From Bacteroidetes bacterium ADurb.Bin012 (GTDB lineage: Bacteria; Bacteroidota; Bacteroidia; Bacteroidales; TTA-H9): a stretch of DNA of 34,030 bases. Each line of letters begins with the position of its first letter. Within the stretch, counting starts at the first letter, position 1. The notes beneath the pieces are model-generated. The model was not told the DNA's origin. It was given only the letters and a program-made list of their open reading frames with translations, and searched no databases. This document shows, in pieces, positions 2,703-27,723 of the stretch. A program made the position numbers and the translations under genes. Location: the NCBI GenBank assembly GCA_002071415.1, contig MWFC01000022.1:1-34030 (forward strand), in the 5' to 3' direction.

Positions 2703-3090
2703 CCACAACCAACAACTTACAATTAACAACATACAACTTACGACTATAAATTACAAATTCGAAATCCCAAATTCCAGTCTCTCTGTCTCCTCGTCCCCCT
2801 TTCTCCACTTTTAACTTTATAAATTTTAACTTACCAATCACCATCACCAATCCACCTCGTCTCTCAGTCTCCTAGTCCCCACGTCTCCCTTCCTCCCTTC
2901 CTCCCTTCCTCCCTTCCTCCCTTCCTCCCTTCCTCCCTTCCTCCCTTTCTCCCTTCTTTCGTTTTTACCTTTATAAACTTTCAACTTTTAACTCACTAAT
3001 CGCCATTCACCATTCACCATCCTCTCATCCCCTCGTCTCCATCCCTCCATTCCTTCATTCCCTATTTTCAGTCCCACTGTCCCCATTCTG
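2703..3090 (-). repeat. modular C-poor/G-rich intergenic repeat, left copy (two cores)
   Basis: The minus strand carries a mosaic of short G-rich, C-poor words. Runs built on GGAGACGAGG-type and GGAAGGGA octamers alternate with an AT-rich core of about 45-60 bp. The core has the order GGATGGTGAATGG, CGATTGGTAAGTTAAAA, then TTTATAAAG. Two cores are present, one around 2962-3022 and one around 2809-2853. The outer part (2703-2780) uses other words (GTAAGTTGT-like and GGAATTTGGGATTT-like). No open frame of interest is present. The same module recurs at 33225-33437 in inverted orientation. No function is known to me. Confidence 0.85.
2884..2960 (+). repeat. 77-nt uninterrupted polypyrimidine tract with 8-bp tandem array
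   Basis: Every base from 2884 to 2960 is C or T on the plus strand. Seven perfect copies of TCCCTTCC occupy 2886-2941, followed by degenerate units. The tract lies between the two core units of the left modular repeat. Polypurine-polypyrimidine mirror tracts of this length can adopt triplex (H-DNA) structure and are prone to slippage; that is general knowledge and is not shown for this locus. Confidence 0.9.
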
Positions 3091-3192: not shown

Positions 3193-4017
3193 ATGAAAAG
3201 TCTATCGAAATTGGTTATGATATTGCTTGGAGGGATGACACTTGCAGGGTGCAGTCCCTACCGGGAGTTGGCTCAACAATACGTGGATCAATCGTCGAAA
3301 CGCGCTGTTGTTTATTTAATCCCTACAGGATACGTCGATAAAGTAAATCTGAAACGATATCCGACTCTCGATTTATCGGCATATACACAGTACCAGCGTG
3401 ATAGCATTAGATTCGAAAAGAGTATTTTCTTGAAGAATTTATCCGATTCGATTTTTCTGACTCGATTTGTAAATTCTTACATGGAAGAGCTTAGAGCTTT
3501 AGGCGTACGAGTCTGCCTCGATGGTCCCGATTCACTCACTTGCCTTCCAGCAGAAGATTCATGGATAGTAATTATGGATCATCTCGAGTTACGAGAGTTT
3601 AATATCCCCATAACGGACGAACAATACATTTATCCTGCTTTATATCAGAAAGATATCGATCTGGGGGCGGTCTCCTTGCATGCCTTGTTTTCGATTAACC
3701 GTTTGAATGAAGACAAAAAGGAGCAACAGTTATATGCCGAGAATTACGTAAGCGATGAGATCACCGAGAGTGGCTTTGGGTTCGAAAAAGATAAGGATAA
3801 AGTAGTTCATTATCGCAAAGTACAACCCTTGACTCTCGAAATGATCTACAACATGGCCGAGGCTCTGGGTCGTAAATACGCTTCTTATACCTATGATTAC
3901 CTGTTGAATGAATATATCTTCAAAAGCAGCAAATCAGTGCCTTCCACTTATTATCATTATAACAGGTTCAAGAATAAACTCGAAGAAGCGGGCGATGATC
4001 GCTTCATTGCAAAATAA
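3193..4017 (+). CDS. orphan lipoprotein of unknown function
   Basis: The 274-residue product starts with a type II signal peptide: MKSLSK, a hydrophobic stretch, then the lipobox LAGC with Cys20 as the lipidation site. The rest is soluble, without obvious transmembrane segments, and is rich in charged and aromatic residues. I recognise no domain. An upstream ATG at 3154 would place 13 extra residues before the signal peptide, so 3193 is the better start. The gene stands alone: the left modular repeat lies 100 bases upstream and 355 bases of non-coding DNA follow. A small lipoprotein of an outer-membrane complex is plausible but unsupported. Confidence 0.75.
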   Translation: MKSLSKLVMILLGGMTLAGCSPYRELAQQYVDQSSKRAVVYLIPTGYVDKVNLKRYPTLDLSAYTQYQRDSIRFEKSIFLKNLSDSIFLTRFVNSYMEELRALGVRVCLDGPDSLTCLPAEDSWIVIMDHLELREFNIPITDEQYIYPALYQKDIDLGAVSLHALFSINRLNEDKKEQQLYAENYVSDEITESGFGFEKDKDKVVHYRKVQPLTLEMIYNMAEALGRKYASYTYDYLLNEYIFKSSKSVPSTYYHYNRFKNKLEEAGDDRFIAK

Positions 4018-4372
4018 ACCTCTGCCTCTCGACACCTGAACATTGAAGAAGAAGAAAGAGCGCTATTCGCCCATTTTACTGCTGTTTCTCGTTGAAAAGA
4101 AGGTTGATTTTTCCCCGAAGTATGGATGTGCACTTTTACGCAGACTAAGAATACACTTATAACATGACACTGCAAATTTGCCATATTCTCGAGTAACAAG
4201 GGACAGAAGGGCAATTACTCCGATATCGATGAAAACAGAGAGTAAATATGAACCATCATAAAATCGAAGGATAAATTTCGTAATATTGCAATGGTTTACA
4301 TTCTTTTTTCGGCAAGAAGAATATTATGCAATATTATCACGACTGATGTGATCATGAAAAGATTTTGTTTCA
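4018..4372. other. intergenic region before trkH
   Basis: No gene is supported in these 355 bases. The only reading frame is a short antisense one without family features. The distal half contains a near-consensus -7 element (TAATATTG, 4281-4288) and a 10-bp inverted repeat listed separately. Confidence 0.5.
4281..4336 (+). promoter_or_regulatory. possible operator/promoter region of the potassium-uptake operon
   Basis: TAATATTGCA (4281-4290) and its exact reverse complement TGCAATATTA (4327-4336) lie 36 bases apart, upstream of the trkH start. The left arm overlaps a near-consensus -7 element (TAATATTG against TAnnTTTG). The pair could bind a dimeric or looping regulator, or be chance in AT-rich DNA. 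Confidence 0.3.
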
Positions 4373-6157
4373 GTGAATAATTCTTTCATTTTTCGAAAAA
4401 ACAAAAAATTTTCAAGTTTCGAGAAACTCCTGCGCATACCATTTTGGCTGAGTTCGATATCAATTCTTGTATTTATTTATGATTTCGGATTTCAGCGACA
4501 ACCCAATGAACTCGAATATTTATTCCTGGTTTATATTGTTACTATCATAGCAGGATGCTTTTCTTTGATTGGAAGATATATTCTAAAGGCAACTCGTCCA
4601 AGGTTAAAATCCCTGCCTTTCGACCTAATTTTACTGGTTCTGCTTTTATGCATGATTATACAGTATTGTGGAATTACATCCATAGAGTTGCCCATATTTT
4701 TACAAAATTCATTTTGGTTATATTTTGCCACCGCAGCGGTATTCCTGAGGGAATTTTCGGCATTGAATCTCAGTTTTAAACGAACAATCGTAAATCCCGT
4801 ACAATTATTCATTTTTAGTTTTCTTTTCATTATCGTTATAGGGACATTTTTATTAATGTTGCCCAATGCCACTTACTCACGAATAAGTTTCTTAGATGCC
4901 CTGTTTACGTCAACCAGTGCAGTTTGTGTAACAGGACTTACTGTTCAGGATACGGCTACTTATTTTACCGAATTCGGACAAATCATCATCATTTTCTTGA
5001 TTCAGATTGGTGGATTAGGGATTATGACATTTGCCAGTTATTTTAGTTATTTTTTCAGAGGATCTTCCACATACGAGAATCAGATCATGCTGCATGAAAT
5101 GACCGATACTGAAAAAATGGCCGAAGTTTTCGGCACTTTAAAAAGAATTATTTTAATTACGTTTATTGTTGAAGCCACAGGGGCTTTAATTATTTATGAG
5201 TGCGTCGGTAAATCTCTTATTATGTTCCAATCCGACCGTATATTCTTTTCCATATTTCATGCAATTTCTGCGTTTTGCAATGCAGGGTTTTCTACATTGA
5301 CCAACAATCTTTACGATCCGGCGCTGCGATATAATTATTCCATGCAGATGACCATTGCTTTATTGGTTATTTTAGGTGGAATTGGGTTCCCTATTCTTTT
5401 CAATTTATTGAGATTTATTGCATTGAAATTGAAATTTTGGTTTCTAAAAATCATCGGCAAAAAGCCAGCCAAAACCGCTCCCTGGATCATTAACTTAAAC
5501 ACCAGAATTGTATTGAATACTACCTTGTTGTTGCTATTAGTAGGCACTATTTTATTTTTTGTTTTAGAATATCACAATACCTTGTATGAACACAGTTTTG
5601 GAGGAAAATTGGCAATCTCATTCTTTAGCGCTGTAACTCCCAGAACTGCTGGATTCAATGTAGTGAATGTATCAGCTTTACATATTTCTACTCTCCTCAT
5701 TACCATTTTGTTGATGTGGATAGGAGCTTCGCCAGCTTCGACAGGCGGTGGAATTAAAACGAGTTCTATTGCCGTGGCATGGTTGAATATTTTAAGTATT
5801 ATTCGAGGGAAACAACGAGTGGAGGCTTTTAAACGTGAAATTTCTCCTGTTTCGATCCATCGAGCCTTCGCCGTCATTTTCTTATCCATTTTTGTTATTT
5901 TCCTATCCATATTCTTTGTATCAATATTCGAGACCGATAAAGGCATCCTGAATATTGCCGTCGAATGCATATCGGCCTTTGGCACTGTTGGCCTCAGTAC
6001 CGGAATTACGCTTCATTTGTGCGGAGCTAGCAAAATTGTATTAATTTTAACCATGTTTGTTGGTAGAATAAATATGCTTACTATTTTGATCGCATTCTTC
6101 AAAAAATCATCTACATGGGTTGGACGTTACCCTTCTGAAAGTATCTTAATCAACTAA
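4373..6157 (+). CDS. trkH: TrkH/KtrB-type potassium uptake channel subunit
   Basis: The 594-residue integral membrane protein belongs to the Trk/Ktr/HKT superfamily and forms the ion-conducting subunit for K+ uptake. All four pore-loop filter segments are visible with their central Gly: VCVTGL (residues 184-189), CNAGF (302-306), RTAGF (424-428) and GTVGL (537-541). About four additional N-terminal membrane segments precede the core, giving a length above that of minimal KtrB. The start is GTG at 4373; an upstream ATG at 4354 is out of frame. The gene lies 13 bases before the RCK-domain subunit, so the two form a standard gated uptake system. Whether transport is coupled to Na+ or H+ cannot be told from the sequence. 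Confidence 0.93.
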   Translation: MNNSFIFRKNKKFSSFEKLLRIPFWLSSISILVFIYDFGFQRQPNELEYLFLVYIVTIIAGCFSLIGRYILKATRPRLKSLPFDLILLVLLLCMIIQYCGITSIELPIFLQNSFWLYFATAAVFLREFSALNLSFKRTIVNPVQLFIFSFLFIIVIGTFLLMLPNATYSRISFLDALFTSTSAVCVTGLTVQDTATYFTEFGQIIIIFLIQIGGLGIMTFASYFSYFFRGSSTYENQIMLHEMTDTEKMAEVFGTLKRIILITFIVEATGALIIYECVGKSLIMFQSDRIFFSIFHAISAFCNAGFSTLTNNLYDPALRYNYSMQMTIALLVILGGIGFPILFNLLRFIALKLKFWFLKIIGKKPAKTAPWIINLNTRIVLNTTLLLLLVGTILFFVLEYHNTLYEHSFGGKLAISFFSAVTPRTAGFNVVNVSALHISTLLITILLMWIGASPASTGGGIKTSSIAVAWLNILSIIRGKQRVEAFKREISPVSIHRAFAVIFLSIFVIFLSIFFVSIFETDKGILNIAVECISAFGTVGLSTGITLHLCGASKIVLILTMFVGRINMLTILIAFFKKSSTWVGRYPSESILIN

Positions 6158-6170
6158 ATGCGTTTAAATT

Positions 6171-6866
6171 ATGAAATTTATCATCATTGGATTGGGAAAT
6201 TTTGGAACTTCTCTGGCTATAAAACTTACTGATATGGGTCATGAAGTAATTGGTGTGGATAAGCAAATGGAAAAAGTAGACGAAATCAAGGATAAAATTA
6301 CCATGGCTTTTTGTTTGGATTGTAAATACCAGGAAGCCATAGCCAGCCTACCTCTTAAAAATACAGATGTGGCGATTGTTGGCATTGGAGAAGATGAAGG
6401 GGCCAATTTGCTTACAACCGCTCTATTAAAAAAAGCAGGAGTTGCACGTTTGATCAGCCGGGCTGTATCTCCTATACATGCAACTATTCTGGAGGCAATG
6501 GAAATATCAGAAATTGTCAGACCAGAAGAAGAAACTGCCGAACGCTGGGCTAAAAAACTTTCCACCAGCGGTATAGTCGACTCATTCGAATTAACAGATA
6601 AGTACAGTATCATCGAAGTAAAAGCTCCTAAAAGCTTCTGGGGAAAAACGATAGAACAAATTGGTTTTAGCAAGAATTATAACGTTATTGTCCTTACCAT
6701 TATGAAAAATGTGAAAGAAAAAAACATTCTGGGTATTTTCAGACGTGTCACCAAGCCTCAGATTCAAGGGATTGCTAAAGCCGATTCGGTAATTTTGGAA
6801 GGCGATATTCTTGTTCTTTATGGACATAATGATGATATTCACAACCTGCTAAAAATCAGTCGATAA
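6171..6866 (+). CDS. trkA: TrkA/KtrA-type RCK regulatory subunit
   Basis: The 231-residue cytoplasmic protein gates the adjacent TrkH channel in response to nucleotide binding. The N-terminal RCK_N Rossmann fold begins MKFIIIGLGNFGTSLA, with the GxGxxG motif at residues 7-12 and the acidic residue at the end of the second strand (VIGVD, Asp31). RCK_C follows from about residue 135 (IVDSFELTDKYSIIEVKAP, ending GDILVLYGHNDDIHNL). It is a single-RCK protein like KtrA rather than the double-length E. coli TrkA. It is the second gene of the operon and is followed by a hairpin that probably ends transcription. Confidence 0.93.
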   Translation: MKFIIIGLGNFGTSLAIKLTDMGHEVIGVDKQMEKVDEIKDKITMAFCLDCKYQEAIASLPLKNTDVAIVGIGEDEGANLLTTALLKKAGVARLISRAVSPIHATILEAMEISEIVRPEEETAERWAKKLSTSGIVDSFELTDKYSIIEVKAPKSFWGKTIEQIGFSKNYNVIVLTIMKNVKEKNILGIFRRVTKPQIQGIAKADSVILEGDILVLYGHNDDIHNLLKISR

Positions 6867-6874
6867 ACAAATCA

Positions 6875-6912
6875 AAAGGCGATCCCCTCCGTGCATCGCC
6901 CTTTAATCCTTT
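6875..6912 (+). terminator. probable terminator of trkH-trkA
   Basis: AAAGGCGAT (6875-6883) pairs with ATCGCCCTTT (6895-6904), allowing one bulged base. The loop is 11 bases and a T-rich stretch follows. Confidence 0.55.
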
Positions 6913-6972
6913 CTTTATTTCCGATGTCAAACTTCCCAGAAGTTTTGTAAGAGGAAAAAATCGAACAAAAAA

Positions 6973-8325
6973 ATGACGATGAAGCATTCGAAGTTTTCGA
7001 TGGAGTCAAATATTAACACGGGAGTTTTGAAGAATATTTTCCGATCGCTCCACTATAGAAATTTTCGTTTGTTTTTCATAGGACAGAGCATCTCCTTGAT
7101 TGGAACATGGATTCAGCGAATTGCCCTGCCCTGGCTGGTTTATGATCTGACCAAATCGGCTTTCCTATTGGGATTAGTTGGTTTTGCCGGACAGATTCCT
7201 ATGTTTTTTATCGCTCCGTTTGCTGGCGTAATCACCGATCGTTTGAACCGTTACCATCTATTGGTTGCTACTCAGGTCTTCGCAATGCTTCAAGCCTTTA
7301 TTTTAGCCTTTCTCATTTTATTCGGAGTGATCAATATATGGCTCATCCTTGTTTTGAACATCTTGCTGGGATGTATCAACGCATTCGACACTCCTGTCCG
7401 TCAATCGTTTTTCGTCGAGATTATCGACAATAAAGACGACTTGCCCAATGCTATCGCTTTGAATTCTTCTATGGTGAATGCGGCTCGATTATTGGGACCT
7501 TCGATTGCTGGCGTGTTAATTGCGTTTACAGGCGAGGGGATGTGTTTCCTCATCAATGCACTAAGTTACATTCCTGTAGTTACTTCCTTACTAATGATGC
7601 GAATTCCTCTAAAAACGCATGAAAAGAATTCATCTCATGTTCTAATAGAGTTAAAGGAAGGATTCTTCTATACTTTTGGACATAAAGTATTGAAACATAT
7701 TATTTTATTATTAGCTCTGGTAAGCCTAATGGGAATGCCTTACACAGTATTGATGCCAGTATTTGCAAAAGAAATTCTTCATGGAGGATCTTATACCTTT
7801 GGATTCTTGATGGGGGCTTCGGGTTTGGGGGCATTAGCCGGTGCACTTTACCTGGCTTCAAAGAAGAACGTGTTGGGATTAGGCCGTTTGATAGCCTATT
7901 CAGCTGCATTATTTGGGACAAGTCTTCTCATATTCTCGTTTTCGCGTATATTCGAACTTTCGCTTTTACTGATGGCCTTTATTGGACTGGGAATGATGAT
8001 GCAAATGGCCTCGAGCAATACATTGTTACAAACATTATCTGATGATGACAAACGAGGGAGGGTAATGAGCTTTTATACTATGGCCTATATGGGAACCGCC
8101 CCATTTGGAAGCTTGCTGGCCGGCGGCCTGGCCGATTTAATTGGAGTTACCTTCACCATAGCAGTGGGCGGAATATGCTGCATGATAGGTGCGGCACTTT
8201 TTTGGCAAAAATTGCCTCAACTTCGCCAAATACTCCATCCTATTTATGTCGATATGGGCATCATTCCGGAAGTATCCTCCGGGCTTCAAACGGCTTCCGA
8301 TCCCCACCTGCCCCCTGAAGAATGA
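6973..8325 (+). CDS. MFS transporter (EntS-like / MFS_3 type)
   Basis: The 450-residue polytopic protein has about 12 hydrophobic helices. Its N-terminal region reads LHYRNFRLFFIGQSISLIGTW, followed by RIALPWLVYDLT, typical of the MFS_3 branch that includes enterobactin-exporter-like proteins. The cytoplasmic loop 2-3 motif is GVITDRLNRY. A conserved acidic/aromatic stretch NAFDTPVRQSF and an LNSSMVNAARLLGPSIAG segment follow, also family hallmarks. The substrate is unknown. ATG at 6973 is used here; in-frame ATGs at 6979 and 7003 are also possible, since the family core begins at about residue 17. It is transcribed alone, between the trk terminator and 312 bases of AT-rich DNA. Confidence 0.88.
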   Translation: MTMKHSKFSMESNINTGVLKNIFRSLHYRNFRLFFIGQSISLIGTWIQRIALPWLVYDLTKSAFLLGLVGFAGQIPMFFIAPFAGVITDRLNRYHLLVATQVFAMLQAFILAFLILFGVINIWLILVLNILLGCINAFDTPVRQSFFVEIIDNKDDLPNAIALNSSMVNAARLLGPSIAGVLIAFTGEGMCFLINALSYIPVVTSLLMMRIPLKTHEKNSSHVLIELKEGFFYTFGHKVLKHIILLLALVSLMGMPYTVLMPVFAKEILHGGSYTFGFLMGASGLGALAGALYLASKKNVLGLGRLIAYSAALFGTSLLIFSFSRIFELSLLLMAFIGLGMMMQMASSNTLLQTLSDDDKRGRVMSFYTMAYMGTAPFGSLLAGGLADLIGVTFTIAVGGICCMIGAALFWQKLPQLRQILHPIYVDMGIIPEVSSGLQTASDPHLPPEE

Positions 8326-8637
8326 TTCCATTTGCCTTGGAAAAATTTTCTTGAAATCCATCCTAATTTTATTGTATTTAAAAAATAATTTTTTTATCTT
8401 TCCAAAATCTAAATGGCATATTTAGAGGAATTATTATTTATTGTATTTCAATGTTTTATATTAAATGACCACAAATATTTCAATCCACATTATTTTTTAT
8501 TTGAGAAATTTAAATATTCTCAGGAAAGACTATTTTACGAATATTTTTTATAAAATTGAATTTTGTAAATTATTAAGGAATTCTTAATTGTAAAAGACTT
8601 AAAACATCTAATTTTGCATTTACGAAATAATATTTAG
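8326..8637. other. AT-rich intergenic region before the helicase gene
   Basis: These 312 bases are strongly AT-rich with no supported gene. The distal end holds the promoter of the helicase gene. An A/T hairpin-like run (around 8376-8398) just after the transporter gene could contribute to termination, but it has no GC stem. Confidence 0.5.
8587..8616 (+). promoter_or_regulatory. promoter of the helicase gene
   Basis: ATTG (8587-8590), an 18-base spacer, then TAATTTTG (8609-8616), an exact match to the Bacteroidota -7 consensus. The GTG start follows 21 bases after the -7 box, which supports that start. Confidence 0.65.
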
Positions 8638-10929
8638 GTGGAGAAGGATATTTTATCACATCTCAATGAAGCCCAGCGAGAAGCGGTTCGATGCATCGAA
8701 GGGCCTGTGATGGTAATTGCAGGGGCAGGTTCAGGCAAAACCCGTGTACTTACTTATCGTATAGCGTATATGATTCAACAGGGCATCGACCCCTTTCATA
8801 TCTTGGCACTTACTTTCACCAATAAGGCAGCCCGTGAAATGAAGGAACGTATGCTGCAGTTGGTGGGTAAGAGCGAAGCTGTGAATGTATGGATGGGCAC
8901 ATTTCATTCCATATTTGCCCGTATTCTTCGAGTAGAAGGCCATCTCATCGGATATCCGGCGGCTTTTGCTATTTATGATGCCGAAGATTCGAAACGCCTA
9001 ATGAAATCCATTATCGACGAGATGCACCTCGACCTCAAGATCTATTCCCCTTCATGGGTTCTCACACGAATCTCTGCAGCTAAATCCAGATTGATTTCTG
9101 TGCAGGAATATCTCGATTCTACCGAGATTCAAACCGCCGACCGTGAAGCTAATCGCCCTGAAACCGGAATACTCTATAAAATATATCAGGACAGGCTTTT
9201 CCGTTCTCAAGCCATGGATTTTGATGACCTGCTGTTCAATATGAACCGTATCCTACAAACTTTTCCAGAAATTCTATTCAAATACCAGAACCGCTTCAGG
9301 AATATTCTTGTAGATGAATATCAGGATACCAATTTCTCGCAATATATCATCATCAAACAACTGGCAGCTCGCTTCGAGAATATTTGTGTTGTGGGAGATG
9401 ATGCCCAAAGCATTTATTCATTCAGAGGAGCCAATATCCAGAATATATTCAATTTCAAGAACGATTATCCTGATTACAAGGTCTTCAAACTCGAACAAAA
9501 TTATCGTTCCACGAAGATTATTGTAGAAGCCGCAAATAAAGTGATTGCCAACAACAGAGAGCAGATATATAAAAAAGTTTGGACAGATAATGAAGCAGGC
9601 GAAAAGATAAAGATAATCAGGGCAAGTAGTGATAATGAAGAAGGCCAGCTTATAGCCGACACTATTTTTGAATTGAAAATGAACCGCCAGCTCGAAAGTG
9701 ATGCCTTTGCCGTGTTGTATCGAACTAATGCACAGTCGCGCGCCATCGAAGAAGCCTTGCGGCGCTTGAATATCCCATACAGAATCTATGGTGGACTATC
9801 ATTTTATAAAAGAAAGGAAATCAAAGACCTTTTGGCTTATTTCCGTTTGGTGGTCAATCCGAATGACGAAGATGCCCTTCGCAGAGTGATCAATTATCCG
9901 GCTCGAGGAATTGGCGAAGGCACTATGGATAAGGCGATGGTTTGCAGTATCGAAAGAAATGTCCCGCTTTGGGAAGTAATTTCCAATCCACTCGAGTATG
10001 GCTTGCAATTGAGGAGCAATATAGTAGAGAAAATGAGCAACTTCGTGGCTATGATAAAAAAATTTCATTATCAGATAAAAACCCACAATGCTTATGAACT
10101 GGCCCGTCAAATTGCGCATGCTTCAGGAATTTTAAAGGAACTCGATGACGACAAATCCCCCGAAGGAGTTGCCCGGCTCGATAATATCGAAGAACTGCTC
10201 AGCGCAATCAACGATTTTTCTCAAAACGACGAGGTTATCCCGAATATCGATCAGGAGGATCAAACCGGTATCCGCTCACTCGACCTGTTTTTGCAACAGA
10301 TTGCCCTTCTGACGGATGCCGACGAAAAAGACGATGGCGTTCCCAAGGTTTCATTCATGACTATCCATTCAGCAAAAGGCCTGGAATTTCCTTATGTGTT
10401 TGTGGCTGGCCTTGAAGAAAACCTCTTCCCTAACATCCAAGCCTTGGGTACTCGCATCGAACTGGAAGAGGAACGCCGCTTATTTTACGTAGCCATTACA
10501 CGGGCACAAAAAAAACTCTTCCTCAGCCATGCTCAAACACGCTATCATCATGGCAGCCTCAATTATTGCGAACCAAGCCGCTTTCTCGATGAAATCGAGG
10601 AAGAATTCATCGAATCGGGTGCAAAAAAAGTTTCATGGAATCCACCTTTTGCATCCGTAAAATCACCAAAAACCATCCCTACTAAACAACCCGATTTTTC
10701 GAAGCTTAAAAAAATTTCTCATGAGGATGTGAACTCACCCTTGAACCCCGATACTGAAGAATTGATCCGTTGCCTCCAAACCGGCATGCAGGTTCGACAC
10801 GAACGCTTTGGACAAGGAAAGGTAATTAGCCTCGAAGGAGAAGGTGCCAATAAAAAGGCAACAGTCTTCTTCCCCGGAATTGGTCAAAAACAACTTTTAC
10901 TTAAATTTGCAAAACTGAAAATCATCTGA
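8638..10929 (+). CDS. pcrA: ATP-dependent DNA helicase, UvrD/PcrA family
   Basis: This 763-residue superfamily 1A 3'-5' helicase unwinds DNA in repair and replication-conflict removal. Motifs in order: Q-motif LNEAQREAV (residues 9-17); Walker A AGAGSGKTR (28-36, Lys34); motif II DEYQDT (226-231); motif III GDDAQSIYSFRGA; motif IV-like LEQNYRST; motif V IHSAKGLEF (576-584); motif VI VAITRAQKKL (from 618). The C-terminus (MQVRHERFGQGKVISLEGEG...) is the Tudor-like domain that contacts RNA polymerase in PcrA/UvrD. Length is normal for the family. The GTG start is set by the promoter and by LSHLNEAQ at the usual N-terminal position. PcrA and UvrD cannot be separated with confidence here. Confidence 0.95.
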   Translation: MEKDILSHLNEAQREAVRCIEGPVMVIAGAGSGKTRVLTYRIAYMIQQGIDPFHILALTFTNKAAREMKERMLQLVGKSEAVNVWMGTFHSIFARILRVEGHLIGYPAAFAIYDAEDSKRLMKSIIDEMHLDLKIYSPSWVLTRISAAKSRLISVQEYLDSTEIQTADREANRPETGILYKIYQDRLFRSQAMDFDDLLFNMNRILQTFPEILFKYQNRFRNILVDEYQDTNFSQYIIIKQLAARFENICVVGDDAQSIYSFRGANIQNIFNFKNDYPDYKVFKLEQNYRSTKIIVEAANKVIANNREQIYKKVWTDNEAGEKIKIIRASSDNEEGQLIADTIFELKMNRQLESDAFAVLYRTNAQSRAIEEALRRLNIPYRIYGGLSFYKRKEIKDLLAYFRLVVNPNDEDALRRVINYPARGIGEGTMDKAMVCSIERNVPLWEVISNPLEYGLQLRSNIVEKMSNFVAMIKKFHYQIKTHNAYELARQIAHASGILKELDDDKSPEGVARLDNIEELLSAINDFSQNDEVIPNIDQEDQTGIRSLDLFLQQIALLTDADEKDDGVPKVSFMTIHSAKGLEFPYVFVAGLEENLFPNIQALGTRIELEEERRLFYVAITRAQKKLFLSHAQTRYHHGSLNYCEPSRFLDEIEEEFIESGAKKVSWNPPFASVKSPKTIPTKQPDFSKLKKISHEDVNSPLNPDTEELIRCLQTGMQVRHERFGQGKVISLEGEGANKKATVFFPGIGQKQLLLKFAKLKII

Positions 10930-11066
10930 TTATATTATATTTCTCTCACTATCTTCCGAACAATAAGAAAGACATTATTCGTTCCCTTTATTAAGAACAA
11001 CTCAAATTTTTTACATCTATTAGCCTCATTTGAATCAATTTTTTTCGTTTCACTGAATAAAACAAC

Positions 11067-11690
11067 ATGGAATACAATACTACTCGAGGTCCGCTCAAAA
11101 TGGCCGAATATGGCCGCAACATCCAGAAGATGGTCGAATATATCATACAGATTCCCGACAGGGAAGAACGCACGCGGGCAGCCCAGGCTCTGGTAAAATG
11201 CATGGAACAAATTACTCCTGAACAAAAAGATTATACCGACTACAAGCGGAAACTCTGGGATCATTTGCATATCATTTCCGATTTCCGCCTCGATGTGGAT
11301 GCTCCTTATCCTTTGCCTTCGAAAGAACAAGTTGAGCTAAAACCACAACCTATTCCCTATTCAGATAACAAGATCAAATACAGGCATTATGGTCGTAATG
11401 TGCAGAAAATGATCGACTATGTGAGCACCCTTGATACCGACCATCCCGACCGTAAAGCGATGATACGTGTGATTGGAAACAGTATGAAAATGGCTTACTT
11501 AACATGGAATAGGGACAATGTGGCCGATGATGTGATTCTTGAACAAATGAAAGAACTATCGGATGGAAAAATTGACACCGAAGGCATTAAATTGGCACCT
11601 ACCAATGAATTACTACAAATAATCAGGCAGCAGCAAAAATTACAACCTGTTGCCAAACCAGGAAATAAGAAAAAGAGAAAACACAAATAG
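11067..11690 (+). CDS. DUF4290 protein
   Basis: The 207-residue soluble protein matches the DUF4290 family as I remember it from Bacteroidota, where it commonly sits next to murA as here (4-base gap). No biochemical role is known to me. The sequence contains an internal duplication: YGRNIQKMVEY (residues 15-25) and YGRNVQKMIDY (108-118). Each copy is followed by an Asp-rich turn, an Arg/Lys-Ala-containing helix and a hydrophobic helix, so the protein is probably two helical half-repeats. The C-terminus is very basic (KPGNKKKRKHK), suggesting nucleic-acid or anionic-surface contact. Co-transcription with murA is likely. Confidence 0.8.
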   Translation: MEYNTTRGPLKMAEYGRNIQKMVEYIIQIPDREERTRAAQALVKCMEQITPEQKDYTDYKRKLWDHLHIISDFRLDVDAPYPLPSKEQVELKPQPIPYSDNKIKYRHYGRNVQKMIDYVSTLDTDHPDRKAMIRVIGNSMKMAYLTWNRDNVADDVILEQMKELSDGKIDTEGIKLAPTNELLQIIRQQQKLQPVAKPGNKKKRKHK

Positions 11691-11694
11691 AACA

Positions 11695-13020
11695 ATGGAC
11701 TATAATAATAAAAACCGACAAGTTTATAGAATAAAAGGCAATAAAACACTCTCAGGAGAAATAACACCCCAAGGAGCCAAGAATGAGGCTCTTCAGGTGA
11801 TCTGTGCTACCCTGCTTACTCCCGAAGAAGTGATCATCCATAATGTCCCGCATATTCTCGATGTGCTGAGGCTTATCGAACTGCTCGAAGGACTCGGGAT
11901 GAAAGCGAAAAGAATTGGAGAACATTCATGGAGTTTTCAAGCCGACGATATACATCCTGAGTACATGCAAAGCCGAGAGTATCATCAAAAAGCCAGGGCC
12001 TTGAGAGGTTCGATGATGGTGGTTGGGCCTGTACTCGCACGATTTGGCAAGGCTTATTCTCCCAGGCCTGGTGGCGATAAGATAGGACGTCGTAGAGTGG
12101 ATACACATTTTAATGGACTTCAAAAACTCGGAGCAAAGATTGGAGAAAATGCCGCCACTCATATCCCTTTCCTCGAAGCCAGTAAACTAAAGGGAACTTA
12201 TATTCTGCTCGACGAGGCCTCGGTAACCGGAACCGCCAATATCGTCATGGCAGCTACACTGGCTGAGGGTACTACCACACTTTTCAATGCAGCTTGCGAA
12301 CCTTACGTAGTTCAGCTTTGCAAAATGCTCAATCGCATGGGTGCACGCATCAGTGGCATAGGATCCAACTTACTGACTATCGAGGGAGTTGAACATCTTG
12401 GCAGTACCACCCATACCCTGATGCCCGACATGATCGAAGTGGGAAGCTTTATTGGCCTTGCTGCCATGACCCAATCCCAATTGATCATTAAAAATACCAA
12501 TTATCGATCATTAGGAATCATTCCCGAGATTTTTCGACGTTTGGGAGTCGAAACCTTCCCCGATAATAACGACATCATCGTACCTACTAAGGAACATTAC
12601 GAAATCGAATCTTTCTGTGATGGATCCATCATGAGTATTTCGGATGCACCCTGGCCTGGATTTACACCCGATTTGATCAGCATTGCTCTGGTCGTTTCCA
12701 CTCAAGCCAAAGGAAGTGTGTTGATTCATCAGAAAATGTTCGAGAGTCGTTTATTCTTCGTGGATAGTCTTATCGAAATGGGTGCACGCATTATTCTTTG
12801 CGACCCCCACCGAGCTACGGTGATAGGACTCGACTGGAAATACCGCCTCCGCGGAATCTGCATGAGCTCACCCGACATTCGCGCAGGAGTCGCCCTCCTT
12901 ATAGCTGCCCTTTCTGCCAAAGGTGAAAGCATTATCGAAAATATAGAGCAAATTGACAGAGGTTACGAAAATTTGGATGCCCGCCTGCAAGTCCTCGGAG
13001 CTGACATTGAACGCATTTAG
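11695..13020 (+). CDS. murA: UDP-N-acetylglucosamine 1-carboxyvinyltransferase (MurA)
   Basis: MurA transfers enolpyruvate from PEP to UDP-GlcNAc, the first committed step of peptidoglycan synthesis, in the cytoplasm. The 441-residue protein shows the family features: KNEALQV in the first domain (Lys29-Asn30), RGSMMVVGPVLARFG, PGGDKIGRRRVDTHF, SVTGTANIVMAA, and PDMIEVGSFIG. The catalytic-loop residue that is Cys115 in E. coli is Asp128 here (PGGDKIG), a natural variant that in other bacteria is active and insensitive to fosfomycin. An in-frame codon at 11650 would overlap the upstream gene by 40 bases; ATG at 11695 fits the family N-terminus (YRIKGNKTLSGEITPQGAKN). Confidence 0.95.
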   Translation: MDYNNKNRQVYRIKGNKTLSGEITPQGAKNEALQVICATLLTPEEVIIHNVPHILDVLRLIELLEGLGMKAKRIGEHSWSFQADDIHPEYMQSREYHQKARALRGSMMVVGPVLARFGKAYSPRPGGDKIGRRRVDTHFNGLQKLGAKIGENAATHIPFLEASKLKGTYILLDEASVTGTANIVMAATLAEGTTTLFNAACEPYVVQLCKMLNRMGARISGIGSNLLTIEGVEHLGSTTHTLMPDMIEVGSFIGLAAMTQSQLIIKNTNYRSLGIIPEIFRRLGVETFPDNNDIIVPTKEHYEIESFCDGSIMSISDAPWPGFTPDLISIALVVSTQAKGSVLIHQKMFESRLFFVDSLIEMGARIILCDPHRATVIGLDWKYRLRGICMSSPDIRAGVALLIAALSAKGESIIENIEQIDRGYENLDARLQVLGADIERI

Positions 13021-13039
13021 ATCCGCTTCGTTCTGCCAT

Positions 13040-13072
13040 TTTGACCTTTACTCTCCAAAGGCATTATTTTTG
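13040..13072 (+). promoter_or_regulatory. promoter of the grpE-dnaJ operon
   Basis: TTTG (13040-13043), a 21-base spacer and TATTTTTG (13065-13072) match the primary-sigma consensus of Bacteroidota. No CIRCE element (HrcA site) is seen, so heat control by that route is not supported. Confidence 0.7.
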
Positions 13073-13083
13073 CAAACAACCTG

Positions 13084-13103
13084 TGGTTATCAAAGATAAA
13101 CCA
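13084..13103 (+). promoter_or_regulatory. imperfect dyad at the grpE transcript start
   Basis: TGGTTATC (13084-13091) and GATAAACCA (13095-13103) pair with one bulged A around a 3-base loop. The dyad sits just after the -7 box, where it could be an operator or form a hairpin at the 5' end of the mRNA. Its role is unknown. Confidence 0.3.
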
Positions 13104-13151
13104 GTGAAATTACTTTGAATAAAGAGTCAAATTAATGTTGAAAAGCAGATA

Positions 13152-13853
13152 ATGTGTATGATCAATCCAGATAATATGCAACCACAAGATCTAAAGAAAC
13201 CCGAAGAAAAAAATTCTATGAATAATGACCATCTCGACGAAAATGAGGAGCAAACGAACAATGACCTCCATGAGGATCGGTCGATGCAGGAATTAAATGA
13301 TAAAGTAACACGGGGTAAACGGAGGAATAAACATGGCAAGACTTCAACCAATGAATCCGAAGTAATAGAATTGGAGGCTAAAATGAAAGAATTGGAACAA
13401 GCAAATGAAAAATCGGAAGAAGAGATTGCCGAATGGAAAGATAAGTTCTTAAGATTATTTTCCGAGTTTGATAATTTCAAGAAGCGTAATGCACGTGAGC
13501 GATTGGAACTCATTAAAAGCGCTAATAGCAGCCTTATAGTCAAATTATTGCCGGTGCTGGATGATTTCGAACGTGCTCTCGATTCTTTGAATCAAAACGA
13601 TGATGAGGTTTTGAAGCCCTATCACGATGGTATAGAATTAATCTATAATAAATTCTATCAAATATTGGAGAAGGAAGGATTGAAACCTATCGGCAACGTG
13701 GGTGAAACCTTCGATACAGATTATCATGAAGCCCTGACGATGATACCTGCGCCCAATGAAGAAATGAAGGGAAAGGTGGTCGAAGTAATCGAAAAAGGCT
13801 ATATGCTTCATGACAAAGTAATACGCTTTGCCAAGGTGATAGTTGGCAGTTAA
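13152..13853 (+). CDS. grpE: nucleotide exchange factor GrpE
   Basis: The 233-residue cytoplasmic co-chaperone releases ADP from DnaK. The N-terminal 70 residues are acidic and low in complexity. A long coiled coil follows (about 75-115: LEAKMKELEQANEKSEEE), then the conserved RLFSEFDNFKKRNARER segment, LPVLDDFERAL, and the C-terminal beta domain (GETFDTDYHEALTMIP, ending VIEKGYMLHDKVIRFAKV). The length is normal with a slightly long N-terminal tail; ATG at 13158 is an alternative start. It is the first gene of a probable operon with dnaJ (30 bases to the chosen dnaJ start). dnaK is not in the window. Confidence 0.95.
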   Translation: MCMINPDNMQPQDLKKPEEKNSMNNDHLDENEEQTNNDLHEDRSMQELNDKVTRGKRRNKHGKTSTNESEVIELEAKMKELEQANEKSEEEIAEWKDKFLRLFSEFDNFKKRNARERLELIKSANSSLIVKLLPVLDDFERALDSLNQNDDEVLKPYHDGIELIYNKFYQILEKEGLKPIGNVGETFDTDYHEALTMIPAPNEEMKGKVVEVIEKGYMLHDKVIRFAKVIVGS

Positions 13854-13883
13854 AGAATGGAAGGAAAGGAAGGTAGATTATAT

Positions 13884-15050
13884 ATGGCCAAAAGAGATTA
13901 TTATGAAGTTTTAGAAGTTTCGCGCAATGCTACGGGGGAGGAAATCAAGAAAGCCTACAGGCAGAAAGCCATGAAGTTTCATCCTGATCGCAACCCAGGT
14001 GATAAGGATGCGGAAGAGAAATTCAAGGAAGCAGCAGAAGCTTATGAGGTTTTAAGCGATCCCGAAAAAAGAAGTAGATACGATCAGTTTGGGCATGAAG
14101 GGGTTGGCGGAGCTGCTGGCGGAGGTTTCAGCGGCCATGGTATGACGATGGAGGATATTTTTTCAAACTTTGGTGATATTTTTGAATCGTTCGGTGGTTT
14201 TGGCGGTTTTGGGGGATTCGGAGGAAGCTCGCGTACACGTAGCCGTAAAACTGCCAGTCATGGAACCAATTTGCGGGTAAAGGTTTCTCTTACTTTGGAA
14301 GAAATCGCCAAAGGGGCTCATAAGAAACTGAAAGTCAATAAGTACATTAAATGTAAGGCTTGCAACGGCACAGGAGCGAGAGCCGGAAGCTCGCCCCATG
14401 TTTGTCCTACCTGCCGAGGTACAGGGCAAATCATTCAAACTACCAATACTTTTCTTGGCCGTATGCAAACCACTTCTACATGTCCCCAGTGTGGCGGAGA
14501 AGGCCGAATTATTACCGACAAATGCCCCGAATGCTATGGCGATGGCATCGTAAAAGGAGAAGAAATTGTAGAAGTGGATATTCCAGCTGGCGTAACCGAT
14601 GGAATGACTTTGAGCCTCAGCGGCAAAGGCAATGCAGGTCCTAAAGGAGGCCTGTCAGGCGACCTGCTGATCGTGATAGAAGAACTCCCTCACCCCGATT
14701 TTCAACGCCAAGGGAATCACCTGCTTTACGAATTATATATCAGCATACCCGATGCAATTCTCGGTACAACCGTCGAAGTGCCTACTCTCGAAGGGAAAGC
14801 CCGTATAAAGATCGAACCAGGAACCCAAGCAGGAAAAATCCTCCGGCTCAAAGGAAAAGGATTGCCTGAAGTAAACTCCTATAAAAAAGGCGATTTGCTG
14901 GTAACTCTAAACATCTGGATACCAAAGAATCTTACTTCATCCGAACGCGAAATGATCGAAAAACTTCGGCTTTCTGAAAACTTCAAACCTCATCCCGATA
15001 AAAAGGAAAAAACCTTCTTTGCTCGTATGCGCGAATTTTTCAACTCTTAA
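13884..15050 (+). CDS. dnaJ: chaperone DnaJ
   Basis: The 388-residue type I Hsp40 delivers substrates to DnaK and stimulates its ATPase. The J domain carries HPD at residues 33-35. A Gly/Phe-rich linker follows (about 72-115, with [10 protein letters not shown]). The zinc domain has all four CxxCxGxG-type motifs: CKACNGTG (157), CPTCRGTG (174), CPQCGGEG (200) and CPECYGDG (214). C-terminal substrate-binding domains complete it. An in-frame ATG at 13857 would add nine residues before the normal [10 protein letters not shown] start, so 13884 is preferred. The ABC-exporter genes follow after 14 bases. Confidence 0.96.
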
Positions 15051-15064
15051 GTCATCTCCTCGAA

Positions 15065-16003
15065 ATGGATTTAATACGTACGGAGGAAGTTACTAAACGA
15101 TATGGCAACTATGTGGCACTCGATAATATCAATATTTCAGTCCCCAAAGGTAGCATTTTCGGCTTGTTGGGGCCCAATGGAGCCGGTAAAACCACTCTAA
15201 TCCGGATTATCAATCAGATTATTGCCCCCGATAAGGGGAAAGTGTTTTTCAATGGCCAGGTACTGCAACCTAATCATACCGATAAAATCGGTTATCTCCC
15301 CGAAGAAAGAGGATTGTATAAGAAGATGAAAGCTAGCGAACAAGCTATTTATCTGGCTCGCCTCAAGGGAGTTTCACAACATGAAGCCGTATCCCGTCTA
15401 AAATACTGGTTCAGGAAATTCGAAATCCTGAGCTGGTGGGATAGAAAAGTAGAAGAACTTTCCAAGGGTATGCAGCAAAAAATCCAATTCATCGTAACTA
15501 TACTTCATCAACCTGAATTATTGATCTTCGATGAGCCCTTTAGCGGATTCGATCCTATCAATGTGGATTTGATAAAGAACGAAATTTTGAAATTAAGAGA
15601 TGAAGGAGCAAGTATCATTTTTTCGACTCACAGTATGGAATCGGTCGAACAACTATGCGACAATATTGCATTGATTCATCAGTCGAAAGTGGTGCTTAGC
15701 GGTGCAGTAAACGAAATTAAAAGTCGCTTCAGCCAGAATCTGTTCGAAGTAGAATCTTACAAAGCTGACCTAAGCACTATAACACCGAATTTGCCGCAAG
15801 GAATTCATTATCAAAAAACCGAACCCAATTCCAGCTTATACAAGCATTATTTCAAATTGGATGCTTCTTTAGCTCCAAATGATCTTTTGGCTTCTCTTTT
15901 GCCTTATATGCAGATTACCGGATTCCGCGAACTCCTTCCTTCTATGCACGATATCTTTGTTTCTACCATTCAAAATGGCTCTTTACCGGCAAACCCATCC
16001 TAA
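15065..16003 (+). CDS. ABC-2 type exporter, ATP-binding subunit (NatA-like)
   Basis: The 312-residue nucleotide-binding subunit powers the adjacent permease. Walker A is GPNGAGKTT (residues 36-44, Lys42), the signature is LSKGMQQK (132-139), Walker B is LLIFDEP (152-158), and the switch His is in STHS (His189). The C-terminal 80 residues after LIHQSKVVLSG fit the DUF4162-type accessory domain of NatA-like ATPases. The substrate is unknown: Na+ export is described for one member (NatAB), but homology does not fix that here. It lies 14 bases after dnaJ and 9 bases before the permease, so it is probably co-transcribed with the chaperones. Confidence 0.88.
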   Translation: MDLIRTEEVTKRYGNYVALDNINISVPKGSIFGLLGPNGAGKTTLIRIINQIIAPDKGKVFFNGQVLQPNHTDKIGYLPEERGLYKKMKASEQAIYLARLKGVSQHEAVSRLKYWFRKFEILSWWDRKVEELSKGMQQKIQFIVTILHQPELLIFDEPFSGFDPINVDLIKNEILKLRDEGASIIFSTHSMESVEQLCDNIALIHQSKVVLSGAVNEIKSRFSQNLFEVESYKADLSTITPNLPQGIHYQKTEPNSSLYKHYFKLDASLAPNDLLASLLPYMQITGFRELLPSMHDIFVSTIQNGSLPANPS

Positions 16004-16012
16004 TTTTCGAGT

Positions 16013-17350
16013 ATGAGTAAAATATCCCTGATCATCGAACGAGAATACATTACCAGAGTCAAAAAAAAGACGTTTATCATCATGACGATTCTGGGACCTA
16101 TTTTAATAGCTGCACTCTGGATAGTTCCTATTTATGTAACCACTTTGAGCCAGGGCAAAAAAACCGTCGAGATTCTTGATGAAACGGGATTGTTTTTCGA
16201 TCAATTTCAATCCGACGAGCATTTTCGATTTGTTCCTATCTTCACCGATCTGGAAACCGCTAAAAAAGGATTGATAGCTTCGGGCGACGATGCATTGGTT
16301 TATATCCCTCGTACAGAGCTGAATGTACCCGTAACGGCTATTTTATATTCTACCTCCCAAACCGGTATAGACATCAAAACCGTGGTAAAGGAAAATCTGC
16401 GTAAACAGGTCGAAGCTTTAAAACTGAAGGCCAAAAATATCGACCCTGAAGTATTGACTTCTATCAAGACGAGCATCATCATTAACTCGATAAAGATTGG
16501 CAAAGACGGTTCAGAGGTCAAATCGTCGGAGGAAATCAGCATTGCGTTGGGACTACTTTCAGGAATCATCATCTATATGTTGATTTTTATGTTTAGTTCG
16601 CAAGTGATGCGTGGTGTGATCGAAGAAAAAGCCAATCGTATTGTCGAAGTCATCGTTACTTCGGTTAAGCCTTTTCAATTGATGATGGGTAAGATCATTG
16701 GCGTAGGGCTGGTGGGCATTACTCAATTCGTTCTATGGATAGTGTTTACGGGGGTTATCATTTTTGGATTTCAGATAACTCATCCTGCTATCCAACAAAA
16801 TGTTTCACAAATAGAAAATTTTTCCAGCACAAGTATAGTGTCTTCTGGTCAATCGGTTGATTTGAATGAAGATATGGTGCTGGAATCGAATATTATCACC
16901 CAAGCACTCGAAGGGATTCGAGCAATTAATATTCCCTTGCTACTATTTGCCTTCATTCTATTCTTTCTGGGAGGTTATCTTCTTTATTCGGCCATGTTTG
17001 CCGCTATTGCAGCAGCTGTAGATAACGAAGCAGATACTCAGCAGTTTGTGCTTCCTATAACCATTCCGTTGTTAATTACCATTATTCTATCGGGGTTTAT
17101 CATCAATAATCCTCAAAGCCAGCTGGCAGTATGGCTCTCTATTATCCCTTTTACCTCACCCGTTAGTATGATGATGAGAATTCCATTTGGAGTTCCAGTC
17201 TGGCAATTGATTCTGTCTATTCTTTTACTTGTGGCTACTTTTATCATTGCCACCTGGATTGCCGGGAAAATCTATCATACCGGAATATTGCTCTATGGAA
17301 AGAAAATAACCTGGGCCGATCTGATCAAATGGATTTCTATGAAACTATAA
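16013..17350 (+). CDS. ABC-2 type exporter, permease subunit (NatB-like)
   Basis: The 445-residue membrane protein starts MSKISLIIEREYITRVKKK, a cytoplasmic amphipathic start typical of NatB/ABC-2 permeases. One membrane helix (about 22-45) follows, then a large extracytoplasmic domain (about 46-180) and five or so C-terminal helices. The conserved loop VIEEKANRIVEVIVTSVKPF (from about residue 202) is the usual coupling region of this family. The pair with the upstream ATPase forms a half-size exporter. No terminator is obvious after it; 115 bases separate it from secDF, which has its own promoter. Confidence 0.87.
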   Translation: MSKISLIIEREYITRVKKKTFIIMTILGPILIAALWIVPIYVTTLSQGKKTVEILDETGLFFDQFQSDEHFRFVPIFTDLETAKKGLIASGDDALVYIPRTELNVPVTAILYSTSQTGIDIKTVVKENLRKQVEALKLKAKNIDPEVLTSIKTSIIINSIKIGKDGSEVKSSEEISIALGLLSGIIIYMLIFMFSSQVMRGVIEEKANRIVEVIVTSVKPFQLMMGKIIGVGLVGITQFVLWIVFTGVIIFGFQITHPAIQQNVSQIENFSSTSIVSSGQSVDLNEDMVLESNIITQALEGIRAINIPLLLFAFILFFLGGYLLYSAMFAAIAAAVDNEADTQQFVLPITIPLLITIILSGFIINNPQSQLAVWLSIIPFTSPVSMMMRIPFGVPVWQLILSILLLVATFIIATWIAGKIYHTGILLYGKKITWADLIKWISMKL

Positions 17351-17393
17351 AACACAATTCAACTCTATACATCATCTTTTTGAATAATTTAAA

Positions 17394-17425
17394 ATTGGGA
17401 GGAATGAAATAATCTTCTAATTTTG
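17394..17425 (+). promoter_or_regulatory. promoter of secDF
   Basis: ATTG (17394-17397), a 20-base spacer and TAATTTTG (17418-17425) match the Bacteroidota consensus; the ATG lies 40 bases further on. Confidence 0.6.
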
Positions 17426-17465
17426 CCCCTTCGAAAAAAACATTAACTATAAATCTACTCAAAGA

Positions 17466-20400: not shown

Positions 20401-20564
20401 CTACATTGGTAACTCTGCTTATGATGTTTATCTTTGGAGGTGAAACACTGAGAGGTTTCCTGTTTGCCCTAATTCTTGGAATCGTTTTCGGAACCTATTC
20501 TTCAGTGTTCAATGCCAGTGCCATTGCTTACGATACCATGAAAAACAAATGGAAGAAAAAATAA
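17466..20564 (+). CDS. secDF: fused protein translocase subunit SecDF
   Basis: The 1032-residue RND-type membrane protein uses the proton gradient to pull Sec substrates across the inner membrane. The SecD half has an N-terminal membrane helix, LGLDLKGGMN (residues 103-112) and a long periplasmic region with an insert around 270-350. Its helix-4 motif is MAVDANVIIYERI (from 605, Asp608 in the proton path). The SecF half begins with another helix and YGVDFTGG (747-754), and has IGYSINDTVVIFDRI (932-946, Asp938). In E. coli these are two proteins; the fusion and the length above 1000 residues are typical of Bacteroidota. It is a single-gene unit bounded by its own promoter and a strong terminator. 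Confidence 0.96.
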   Translation: MQNKGIVKFFAILFVLVCLFQLSFTFVSKHIESKGKSYATSPKAQALAKQIAKGDKFRELLVYDSLVKAREKFFFDSIADQVVYNIGVRKYTYKEVKERELNLGLDLKGGMNVTMEVSVPDILKALSNYSTDTTFNEALRLAREKQKNSNADFVDLFYESFKELDPNGSLAAIFATVELKDKVKFNSSNEEVLQVLREETKAAVDRTFNILRTRIDRFGVAQPNIQKLQTTGRILIELPGIKDPDRVRKLLQGSARLEFWPTYNFDEVYQFFDEADKRLMAIYKEEGLITPEDTIASAKNKEGGITDSLQTTEADTGLLAKLADSARLQKSKQTSFEEYAKEHPLYAYLIPSYYPDENNQFHPAKTARVGSAAIKDTARVNAMLKRVKDVFPSNMRLHWTVKPDPQRPGILDLVAIKVTRPDGQAPLGGEVVIDARQDVNPTTGGVEVSMTMNREGAAEWKRITAENIGRQVAIVLDGYVYSYPVVQTEISGGRSAISGGGMTVEEAKDLANILQSGRLPAPARIVQEEVVGPSLGKEAINAGMKSFAAAFFIVLVYMFLYYNRGGLIADLALCLNLFFIFGVLASFGAVLTLPGIAGIVLTMGMAVDANVIIYERILEEVRAGKGLRVAIADGYKNSYSAIIDGNVTTLLTGIILFIFGSGPIQGFATTLIIGIISSLFTAILVSRVIMEWWADKGYKLQFDNKFTRGFLTKANFDFIGIRKYAYIFSIALFLLAIGSFIFKGLNYGVDFTGGRTYVVRFDRDVNVPEIRELLANEFGEAPEVKTYGPSNQVKITTKYLIDEEGREVDSLIDRKIYNALRGLYANEINFSHFASDLNQSGKLIGILTSQKVGPTIAYDIKRNAIMAVIFALLGIFIYIAARFNKWQFGLGGVISLFHDTIIIIGLFSLFHGILPFNLEVDQSFIAAILTIIGYSINDTVVIFDRIREYNKLYPKRDLKINMNAAINSTLARTMNTSCTTLVTLLMMFIFGGETLRGFLFALILGIVFGTYSSVFNASAIAYDTMKNKWKKK

Positions 20565-20583
20565 CTATTAATTCATATCTTGG

Positions 20584-20625
20584 AAAATACCCGCTGGCTG
20601 ATGTCATCGGGTATTTTGCTTTTTA
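20584..20625 (+). terminator. intrinsic terminator of secDF
   Basis: AAAATACCCG (20584-20593) pairs perfectly with CGGGTATTTT (20608-20617). The loop is 14 bases and GCTTTTTAT follows. Confidence 0.8.
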
Positions 20626-20668
20626 TCGACCAGAATGCTCGACGAATCAAATATAAATCTTCCATTTA

Positions 20669-20700
20669 TTTGAGGTATGTTGTAGCTTTGTAATTTATTT
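20669..20700 (+). promoter_or_regulatory. promoter of tatA and downstream genes
   Basis: TTTG (20669-20672), a 20-base spacer and TAGCTTTG (20693-20700) match the consensus exactly. The upstream tatA ATG (20712) would leave a leader of only a few bases, which slightly favours the in-frame ATG at 20724. Confidence 0.7.
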
Positions 20701-20711
20701 TCGATTCTTTA

Positions 20712-21032: not shown

Positions 21033-21059
21033 TTATTTAAAAAAGAATTGTTCAGAGCT

Positions 21060-23537: not shown

Positions 23538-23541
23538 ATTT

Positions 23542-24714: not shown

Positions 24715-24723
24715 ATACCTCGG

Positions 24724-27722: not shown

Positions 27723-27723
27723 G

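Follow-up and report, generated by a model that had tools for sequence, protein, structure and literature searches.

The 34,030-nt stretch of DNA analysed here (the window) carries a G-rich, C-poor intergenic repeat near each of its ends, and the question that this locus raises is whether these repeats are copies of one element built around a constant core or belong to a different kind of family, and what could have spread them. The window is contig C22 of the G000 genome (2.64 Mb, 154 contigs), and its proteins appear Bacteroidota-like: they include, for instance, a fused SecDF and a C-terminal sorting-like domain.

Anatomy of the two arrays

The sequence-only reading had placed three cores in the window, at 2809-2853 and 2962-3022 on the minus strand and at 33299-33346 on the plus strand, and all three were found at these positions. 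The core words that it quoted are complete in the right-hand copy only; the two left-hand copies are clear variants, one with an extra GTTGAAA unit and one missing a GTT. Allowing up to 3 mismatches, the 26-mer GGTGAATGGCGATTGGTAAGTTAAAA matched the window at 2 places and none of 100 shuffles. The limits proposed for the left feature (2703-3090) agree almost exactly with those of a word model (2704-3089), and a scan based on composition only gave 2703-3098. We sorted the words into six classes: H (GTGGATR, GTGATTAG), K (GTTAAAAG, AGTTYATAAAG), M (GGAAGGGAGG), E (GGAGACNR), F (AATTTGK) and L (TTGTTAG, TTGTAAG). With these classes, the two arrays are organised as follows.

2704..3089, minus strand: left array, module order E-H-K-M-E-H-K-M-F-L (word-model scan)
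2962..3022, minus strand: core 1, H words GGATGGTGAATGGTGAATGGCGATTAG then K words TGAGTTAAAAGTTGAAAGTTTATAAAGGTAAAAA; full sequence GGATGGTGAATGGTGAATGGCGATTAGTGAGTTAAAAGTTGAAAGTTTATAAAGGTAAAAA
2885..2956, minus strand: M module, nine GGAAGGGA-type octamers, 96% matching (TRF)
2855..2888, minus strand: E module of the left array, GGAGACGTGGGGACTAGGAGACTGAGAGACGAGG octamers
2809..2853, minus strand: core 2, H then K, GGATTGGTGATGGTGATTGG TAAGTTAAAATTTATAAAGTTAAAA; full sequence GGATTGGTGATGGTGATTGGTAAGTTAAAATTTATAAAGTTAAAA
2704..2773, minus strand: F-L tail of the left array, AATTTGGGATTTCGAATTTGTAATTTATAG, then GTAAGTTGTATGTTGTTAATTGTAAGTTGTTGG heptamers
33228..33447, plus strand: right array, module order M-E-H-K-M-E-H (word-model scan)
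33242..33300, plus strand: E module of the right array, 7.5 copies of the GGAGACGA octamer (TRF)
33299..33346, plus strand: core 3, GGATGGTGAATGGCGATTGG TAAGTTAAAAGTTTATAAAGTTTAAAA, H then K; full sequence AGGATGGTGAATGGCGATTGGTAAGTTAAAAGTTTATAAAGTTTAAAA
33396..33440, plus strand: H module of the right array, GTGGATA heptamers (TRF)

Transposase remnants adjoin the left array (1328-2507), namely an HTH_Tnp_1 domain of 86 aa and an apparently broken rve integrase-core ORF of 197 aa, with several related fragments in the sister species G001. Further left, a short-chain dehydrogenase ORF (723-1166, minus strand, 147 aa) appears truncated and has its G001 match on a different contig (C12:111419-111844). 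On the other side, within 33428-34030, a 112-aa ORF starts inside the right array and has no Pfam match; past it, at the contig end, lies what may be the start of a transposase-like ORF.

The words follow one directional order

All the words lie on one strand, on which G reaches 37.7% and C only 4.6%, and the autocorrelation of the arrays peaks at 7, 14, 21 and 8 nt. Their order is GTGGATR > GTTAAAAGTTYATAAAGTT > GGAAGGGAGG > GGAGACNR > GTGGATR > AATTTGKA > TTGTTAG, that is, from 5' to 3' on the G strand, H, K, M, E, H, then F and L, sometimes cycling, and this fixed order links at least three word families in most arrays. Transitions in the forward direction far outnumbered the opposite ones for H>K (16 v 1), K>M (21 v 0), M>E (19 v 0) and E>H (21 v 5). 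The asymmetry statistic was 121; it averaged 36 and never exceeded 93 in 5000 trials with arrays reversed at random, and averaged 34 and never exceeded 81 in 3000 trials with words shuffled within arrays. Since the words obey one directional grammar, what had been described as a conserved core with differing purine-rich flanks corresponds to the H-K section of this grammar, which extends further: the cores do recur, but the supposed flanks are modules of the same ordered vocabulary. A single element with a constant core and drifting flanks is thus not what these loci contain; they are tandem arrays of 7- and 8-mer words, whose vocabulary differs between sister species.

The module scan detected no class word on the opposite strand of any array, and no inverted repeats were found in the arrays. 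Neither strand had a stable fold (z-scores from -1.0 to 0.5; about 0 kcal/mol for the C-strand), and no Rfam match to a structured RNA was obtained within the window. Quadruplexes were ruled out as a general property of the arrays, with G3+ motifs in only 5/40 of them. Polarity set by the replication strand was also rejected, the array strand agreeing with the local GC skew in 22/40 cases.

A dispersed intergenic family in the genome

A 6-mer word model trained on seeds and applied to 1.56 Mb of the 2.64-Mb G000 genome called 40 array segments, ranging from 38 to 507 nt, at 35 sites, and a model of base composition only, blind to words, recovered nearly the same set of places. Allowing up to 2 mismatches, the pattern of three GGNGACNR octamers had 98 matches in the genome versus 0 for the reversed pattern, the core recurred as well, and a BLAST search with the whole right array as query returned 66 matches. 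The dispersed family proposed for this locus, which a lack of further copies would have contradicted, is therefore real. Its description as modular, intergenic, non-coding and lacking terminal repeats also held in the genome-wide word-model scan, the inverted-repeat search and the comparison of shared blocks: the arrays lie almost all between ORFs, the few overlaps concerning spurious-looking ORFs or the last bases of a gene. Tandem runs of 7- and 8-nt units were detected by TRF, as in long simple-sequence repeats. Several contigs of both genomes end in word arrays (L183, L212 and L216; G001 contig ends C20, C53 and C45), and because arrays stand at the very ends of contigs, the copy numbers are probably underestimates.

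Two other repeats neighbour the arrays. One is dispersed, not C-poor, composed of ATCAGCGTAAATCAGCGAGAAA and CTCGCAGATATCGCAGAAAAA words and often located directly after arrays, as at L174:13637-13740 (C11:53637-53740) and L082:4825-4978 (C4:44825-44978); it is also present in G001, at about 77-87% identity. The other is a repeat-like stretch, AACCACAGAGAGCACGGAG ... TCTCGGTGTACTCTGTGGTTAAAAA, at L174:5030-5180 (C11:45030-45180), which abuts a word array at a breakpoint.

Blocks shared between loci and species-specific dialects

Distant loci have blocks of 50-260 nt in common, with variable and never constant ends. Examples are a block of 262 nt (90% identity) at C16:5181 and C32:1704, which runs beyond the array into another repeat, one of 137 nt (97.8%) at C2:143035 and C38:6385, and one of 73 nt (98.6%) at C2:152652 and C8:14323. 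In the window, 35 nt of the H module at 33396..33440 are found again, without a mismatch, at C32:1829. Near-perfect local runs also occur within arrays, such as the nine octamers at 2885-2956, and are what slippage or unequal exchange would give; this M module is, judging from its sequence, a recent local expansion.

Coding flanks are mostly about 77-86% identical between G000 and G001, and the arrays of G001 have their own dialect (GGGTGATGG, GTAGAAAGTTTGAAAGTTCATAAAGTT, TCAGTTATCAG, GTGGAAA). Upstream of ispF, both species carry an array, oriented alike in the two; next to the flank GGGACTGAAAGGGCGAAGCTGT, which they share, it is made of GTAGTTG heptamers in G000 and of GTGGAAA/GTAGAAA heptamers in G001. 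The mean 6-mer similarity of arrays was 0.29 within G000 and 0.25 within G001, versus 0.13 between the two species. The few candidate orthologous pairs of arrays scored 0.07-0.35, whereas the best match of each G000 array in its own genome scored 0.25-0.67, above nearly all the orthologous pairs. Such a pattern of similarity, seen in few orthologous pairs, is the one that concerted evolution would leave.

Gene order tends to break at the arrays

For the breakpoint test, 0.72 Mb of G001 was compared by BLASTN with 1.56 Mb of G000 and the aligned blocks were chained. An array was present in one or both species at 9/18 block junctions, one of the nine being doubtful (a single 10-nt word match), in a small sample whose G001 stretches were partly chosen because of array hits. 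Among intergenic G000 gaps of at least 150 bp with both sides aligned, 5/7 gaps with an array were junctions versus 7/89 without (Fisher p=2.4e-4), and the excess was found at other gap lengths (p=7e-5 for at least 100 bp, p=1.3e-3 for at least 300 bp). At one of the two array gaps counted as collinear, G001 has a 4.4-kb gene insertion. The control for length lowers but does not remove the worry that arrays and rearrangements may favour the same permissive intergenic gaps. Within the compared sequence, intergenic gaps that hold an array coincide with breaks in gene order more often than those that do not.

The G001 counterpart of the window, contig C19, lay outside this test and gave the following alignment, checked at 3288-8326 and 23000-33200.

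3288..33200, plus strand: collinear block, equivalent to G001 C19:8002-37882

The segments 3288-8326 (C19:8002-13038) and 23000-33200 (C19:27689-37882) follow in the same order with matching spacing, and both window arrays sit immediately outside the two ends of this collinear 30-kb block. The sequence left of the left array matches other G001 contigs, and at the left boundary G001 retains a short remnant of H words, CCACCAAACACTAGCCACCATCC, immediately ahead of TTGGCAAATTTTTTGCATATTT, which both species have. At the right end of the block, G001 runs on into an elongation-factor-G-like gene, with no array. When the left window array was added to the test, the counts became 6/8 versus 7/89 (p=4e-5). 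The five G000 junction arrays of the test have at most 25 nt of exact match with any other place in the sequence examined, so misassembly driven by repeats is unlikely there. At several junctions an array was observed in only one of the two partners; a crossover from array to array is therefore not directly shown.

Occurrence in other genomes and viruses

Array matches of the E octamer (triple-octamer GGAGAC pattern) were obtained in 14/394 genomes of the phylum versus 13 for the reversed control. Counts of at least 20 were reached in three genomes only, this one (64), G187 (102) and G239 (25), the highest count of the reversed control in any of the 394 genomes being 11. In viral stretches, the GGAGAC triple-octamer was present in 33 and the reversed control in at least 80, the E pattern thus being rarer than its control. 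Start codons within 20 nt of phage arrays were located 12 times on the 5' side and 3 times on the 3' side. A vocabulary common to phyla and phages was rejected, given that the E word, the only one tested, failed the reversed-pattern control. The 26-mer K core was found exactly in Bacteroidetes MAGs and in three candidate-phyla MAGs, in a search with no control scan alongside, and sharing of the core across phyla is unproven. In genome G024 (L091, L097), a different multicopy repeat, CGCAAGTTAAAAGTTAATAAAGTTTACTTGAAAGTTA, resembles K words and occurs in more than 10 places within a constant context; it is perhaps an insertion-sequence end.

Origin and possible role of the arrays

With a dialect that differs between sister species and a location at gene-order breaks, the arrays look like a fast-evolving repeat family tied to reshuffling. 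We lean, if only slightly, towards a polar, dispersed, non-coding and non-autonomous family of word arrays that would expand by slippage, spread by recombination and mark or promote rearrangement; with the same slight leaning, and as part of this reading, we take it for a composite kind of bacterial long simple-sequence repeat, its units being 7 and 8 nt long. Units would multiply within an array by slippage or unequal exchange, and segments would be copied between arrays by homologous or homeologous recombination. Slippage alone does not predict the strict module order, so that repeated copying of blocks is needed. This copying between loci could homogenise the vocabulary within a genome, and the same exchanges might occasionally join arrays from different places, producing inversions or translocations. 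Arrays would be tolerated at the edges of transcription units because they are hairpin-free and disturb no gene. Loss of mismatch repair as the driver of expansion was rejected, MutS being intact in both species.

The arrays could instead be scars that mark old breakpoints, short copied words laid down by error-prone repair synthesis or template switching at intergenic breaks. We hold this to be unlikely, even if it agrees with breakpoint arrays that are short (40-152 bp), have at most 25 nt of exact sharing with other arrays and often occupy one partner site only. A genome-wide shared vocabulary in strict order would be unexpected of independent filler events, and the array upstream of ispF has a conserved context, in DNA that is collinear between the two species. 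Neither G000 nor G001 has a Ku gene, which makes canonical end joining unlikely as the source of filler, and a Ku-dependent filler was rejected. Selection as regulatory DNA seems to us more doubtful again: the arrays would be polar transcription boundaries, or pyrimidine-rich leaders recruiting ribosomal protein S1. In the boundary version, which we find equally doubtful, a C-rich, G-poor unstructured RNA, transcribed from the C-rich strand and similar to Rho-loading sites, would stop transcripts from entering the neighbouring unit. The composition of the C-strand (37.7% C, 4.6% G) and its folding energy of about 0 kcal/mol are suited to such a role, and the left array stops just upstream of a short sequence that is conserved in G001 and precedes the next gene. 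The 5' end of the G-strand also tends to be closer to a gene (median 72 vs 156 nt, Wilcoxon p=0.03), an orientation trend shared with GGGNATC repeats (Rehm et al., PMC4692102). However, a simple count of orientations was not significant (18/30, p=0.36), the two orientations were equal in tandem gene pairs (10 v 11), the words at a given site change from one species to the other, and many genes are without an array.

That the family is dispersed and multicopy, with blocks copied between loci and transposase gene fragments adjoining the left array, would fit a non-autonomous mobile element (MITE, REP/BIME or retro-element), but inverted repeats, constant ends and a stable fold are all lacking and this origin is very improbable. 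The terminal inverted repeats and constant ends of a MITE or transposon were not found, nor was the palindromic hairpin unit of a REP/BIME with RAYT; RAYT activity is not supported, Y1 transposase (Y1_Tnp) being present only as short fragments in G000, with none in G001. Reverse transcriptase (PF00078), as a retro-element (retron, DGR or group II) would need, is absent from both genomes, and reverse transcription is not supported either. Since the sister sites are rearranged, no clean empty site was found for a comparison of target-site duplications. Plasmid carriage was dismissed as well, with weak, chance-level matches only. An assembly or contamination artefact, or chance low-complexity DNA, is hardly credible: several arrays do lie close to contig ends, but the counts were 0 in shuffles and 0 for the reversed pattern, the two species, assembled independently of each other, both have arrays, some of them at matching sites, and the breakpoint arrays contain no long exact repeats.

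Going further than the word-array family that we favour, the arrays may be dedicated recombination substrates, ordered, polar, hairpin-free, kept similar by conversion between loci and renewed in each species, a proposal that we consider a long way short of probable. Were it true, exchanges in intergenic DNA would reshuffle gene order without damage to genes, and the arrays would be neither insertion sequences nor REPs but a new class of genome-plasticity element. Intergenic repeats of the heptamer type have been noted since the STRRs without an accepted cause. These two sister species allow the position and orientation of arrays, the order of their words, the turnover of dialects and the association with breakpoints to be measured jointly, and with such measurements the question of whether arrays cause or mark rearrangement becomes testable.

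Comparison with known repeats

The view that no named element has this structure stands in part. Heptamer and octamer intergenic repeats (STRR, LSSR, TAACTGA, GGGNATC) are of the same general kind (PMC4679880, PMC4692102), whereas the ordered multi-word structure and the breakpoint association were not found described in the open-licence literature. For a fixed multi-word order, species dialects and a measured breakpoint excess, no description was found in that literature, and subscription papers could hold one. Overall, the arrays share the general kind of the heptamer-type repeats but lack the word or structure by which each named set is defined.

Long simple-sequence repeats have units of 5-11 nt, according to the account of Mrazek et al. 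(2007) given in PMC4679880, and the heptameric STRRs of cyanobacteria are named in PMC4748335 and PMC2670836. As far as these accounts extend, such repeats are mostly intergenic, dispersed tandem 7-8-mers like those described here, patchy among bacteria, dominated by heptamers and attributed to slippage; unlike them, the present arrays combine several word families in one fixed directional order with block copying and synteny breakpoints. One or few unit types per array, as in LSSR and STRR, is not what the G000 arrays contain. TAACTGA direct repeats are known from Beggiatoaceae, cyanobacteria and five Bacteroidetes (MacGregor 2015, PMC4679880); in some Bacteroidetes, heptamers of this type lie inside longer assemblages of mixed heptamers, and a role in gene rearrangement was suggested for Gramella (PMC4679880). 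They too are intergenic heptamers (PMC4679880), but the main words differ here: a search of 1.56 Mb of G000 and 0.72 Mb of G001 found no exact TAACTGA pair and a single near pair, located in G001.

The quadruplex-forming GGGNATC and GGGGAYT repeats of Xanthomonas and Nostoc (Rehm et al. 2015, PMC4692102) resemble the arrays in having a G-rich strand, in lying between genes and in varying widely in length and sequence among close relatives, and both show a trend in orientation relative to neighbouring genes (PMC4692102). In the sequence examined, we counted 0 GGGNATC pairs and 2 GGGGAYT pairs. GGGNATC loci were associated with increased genome stability (PMC4692102), whereas the present arrays are associated with breakpoints. 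Finally, the tandem repeat regions of archaeal Borgs have the same strand-biased composition, rapid evolution and intergenic copies (PMC9879509); Borg repeats arise independently at each site (PMC9879509), whereas here one vocabulary is common to many loci.
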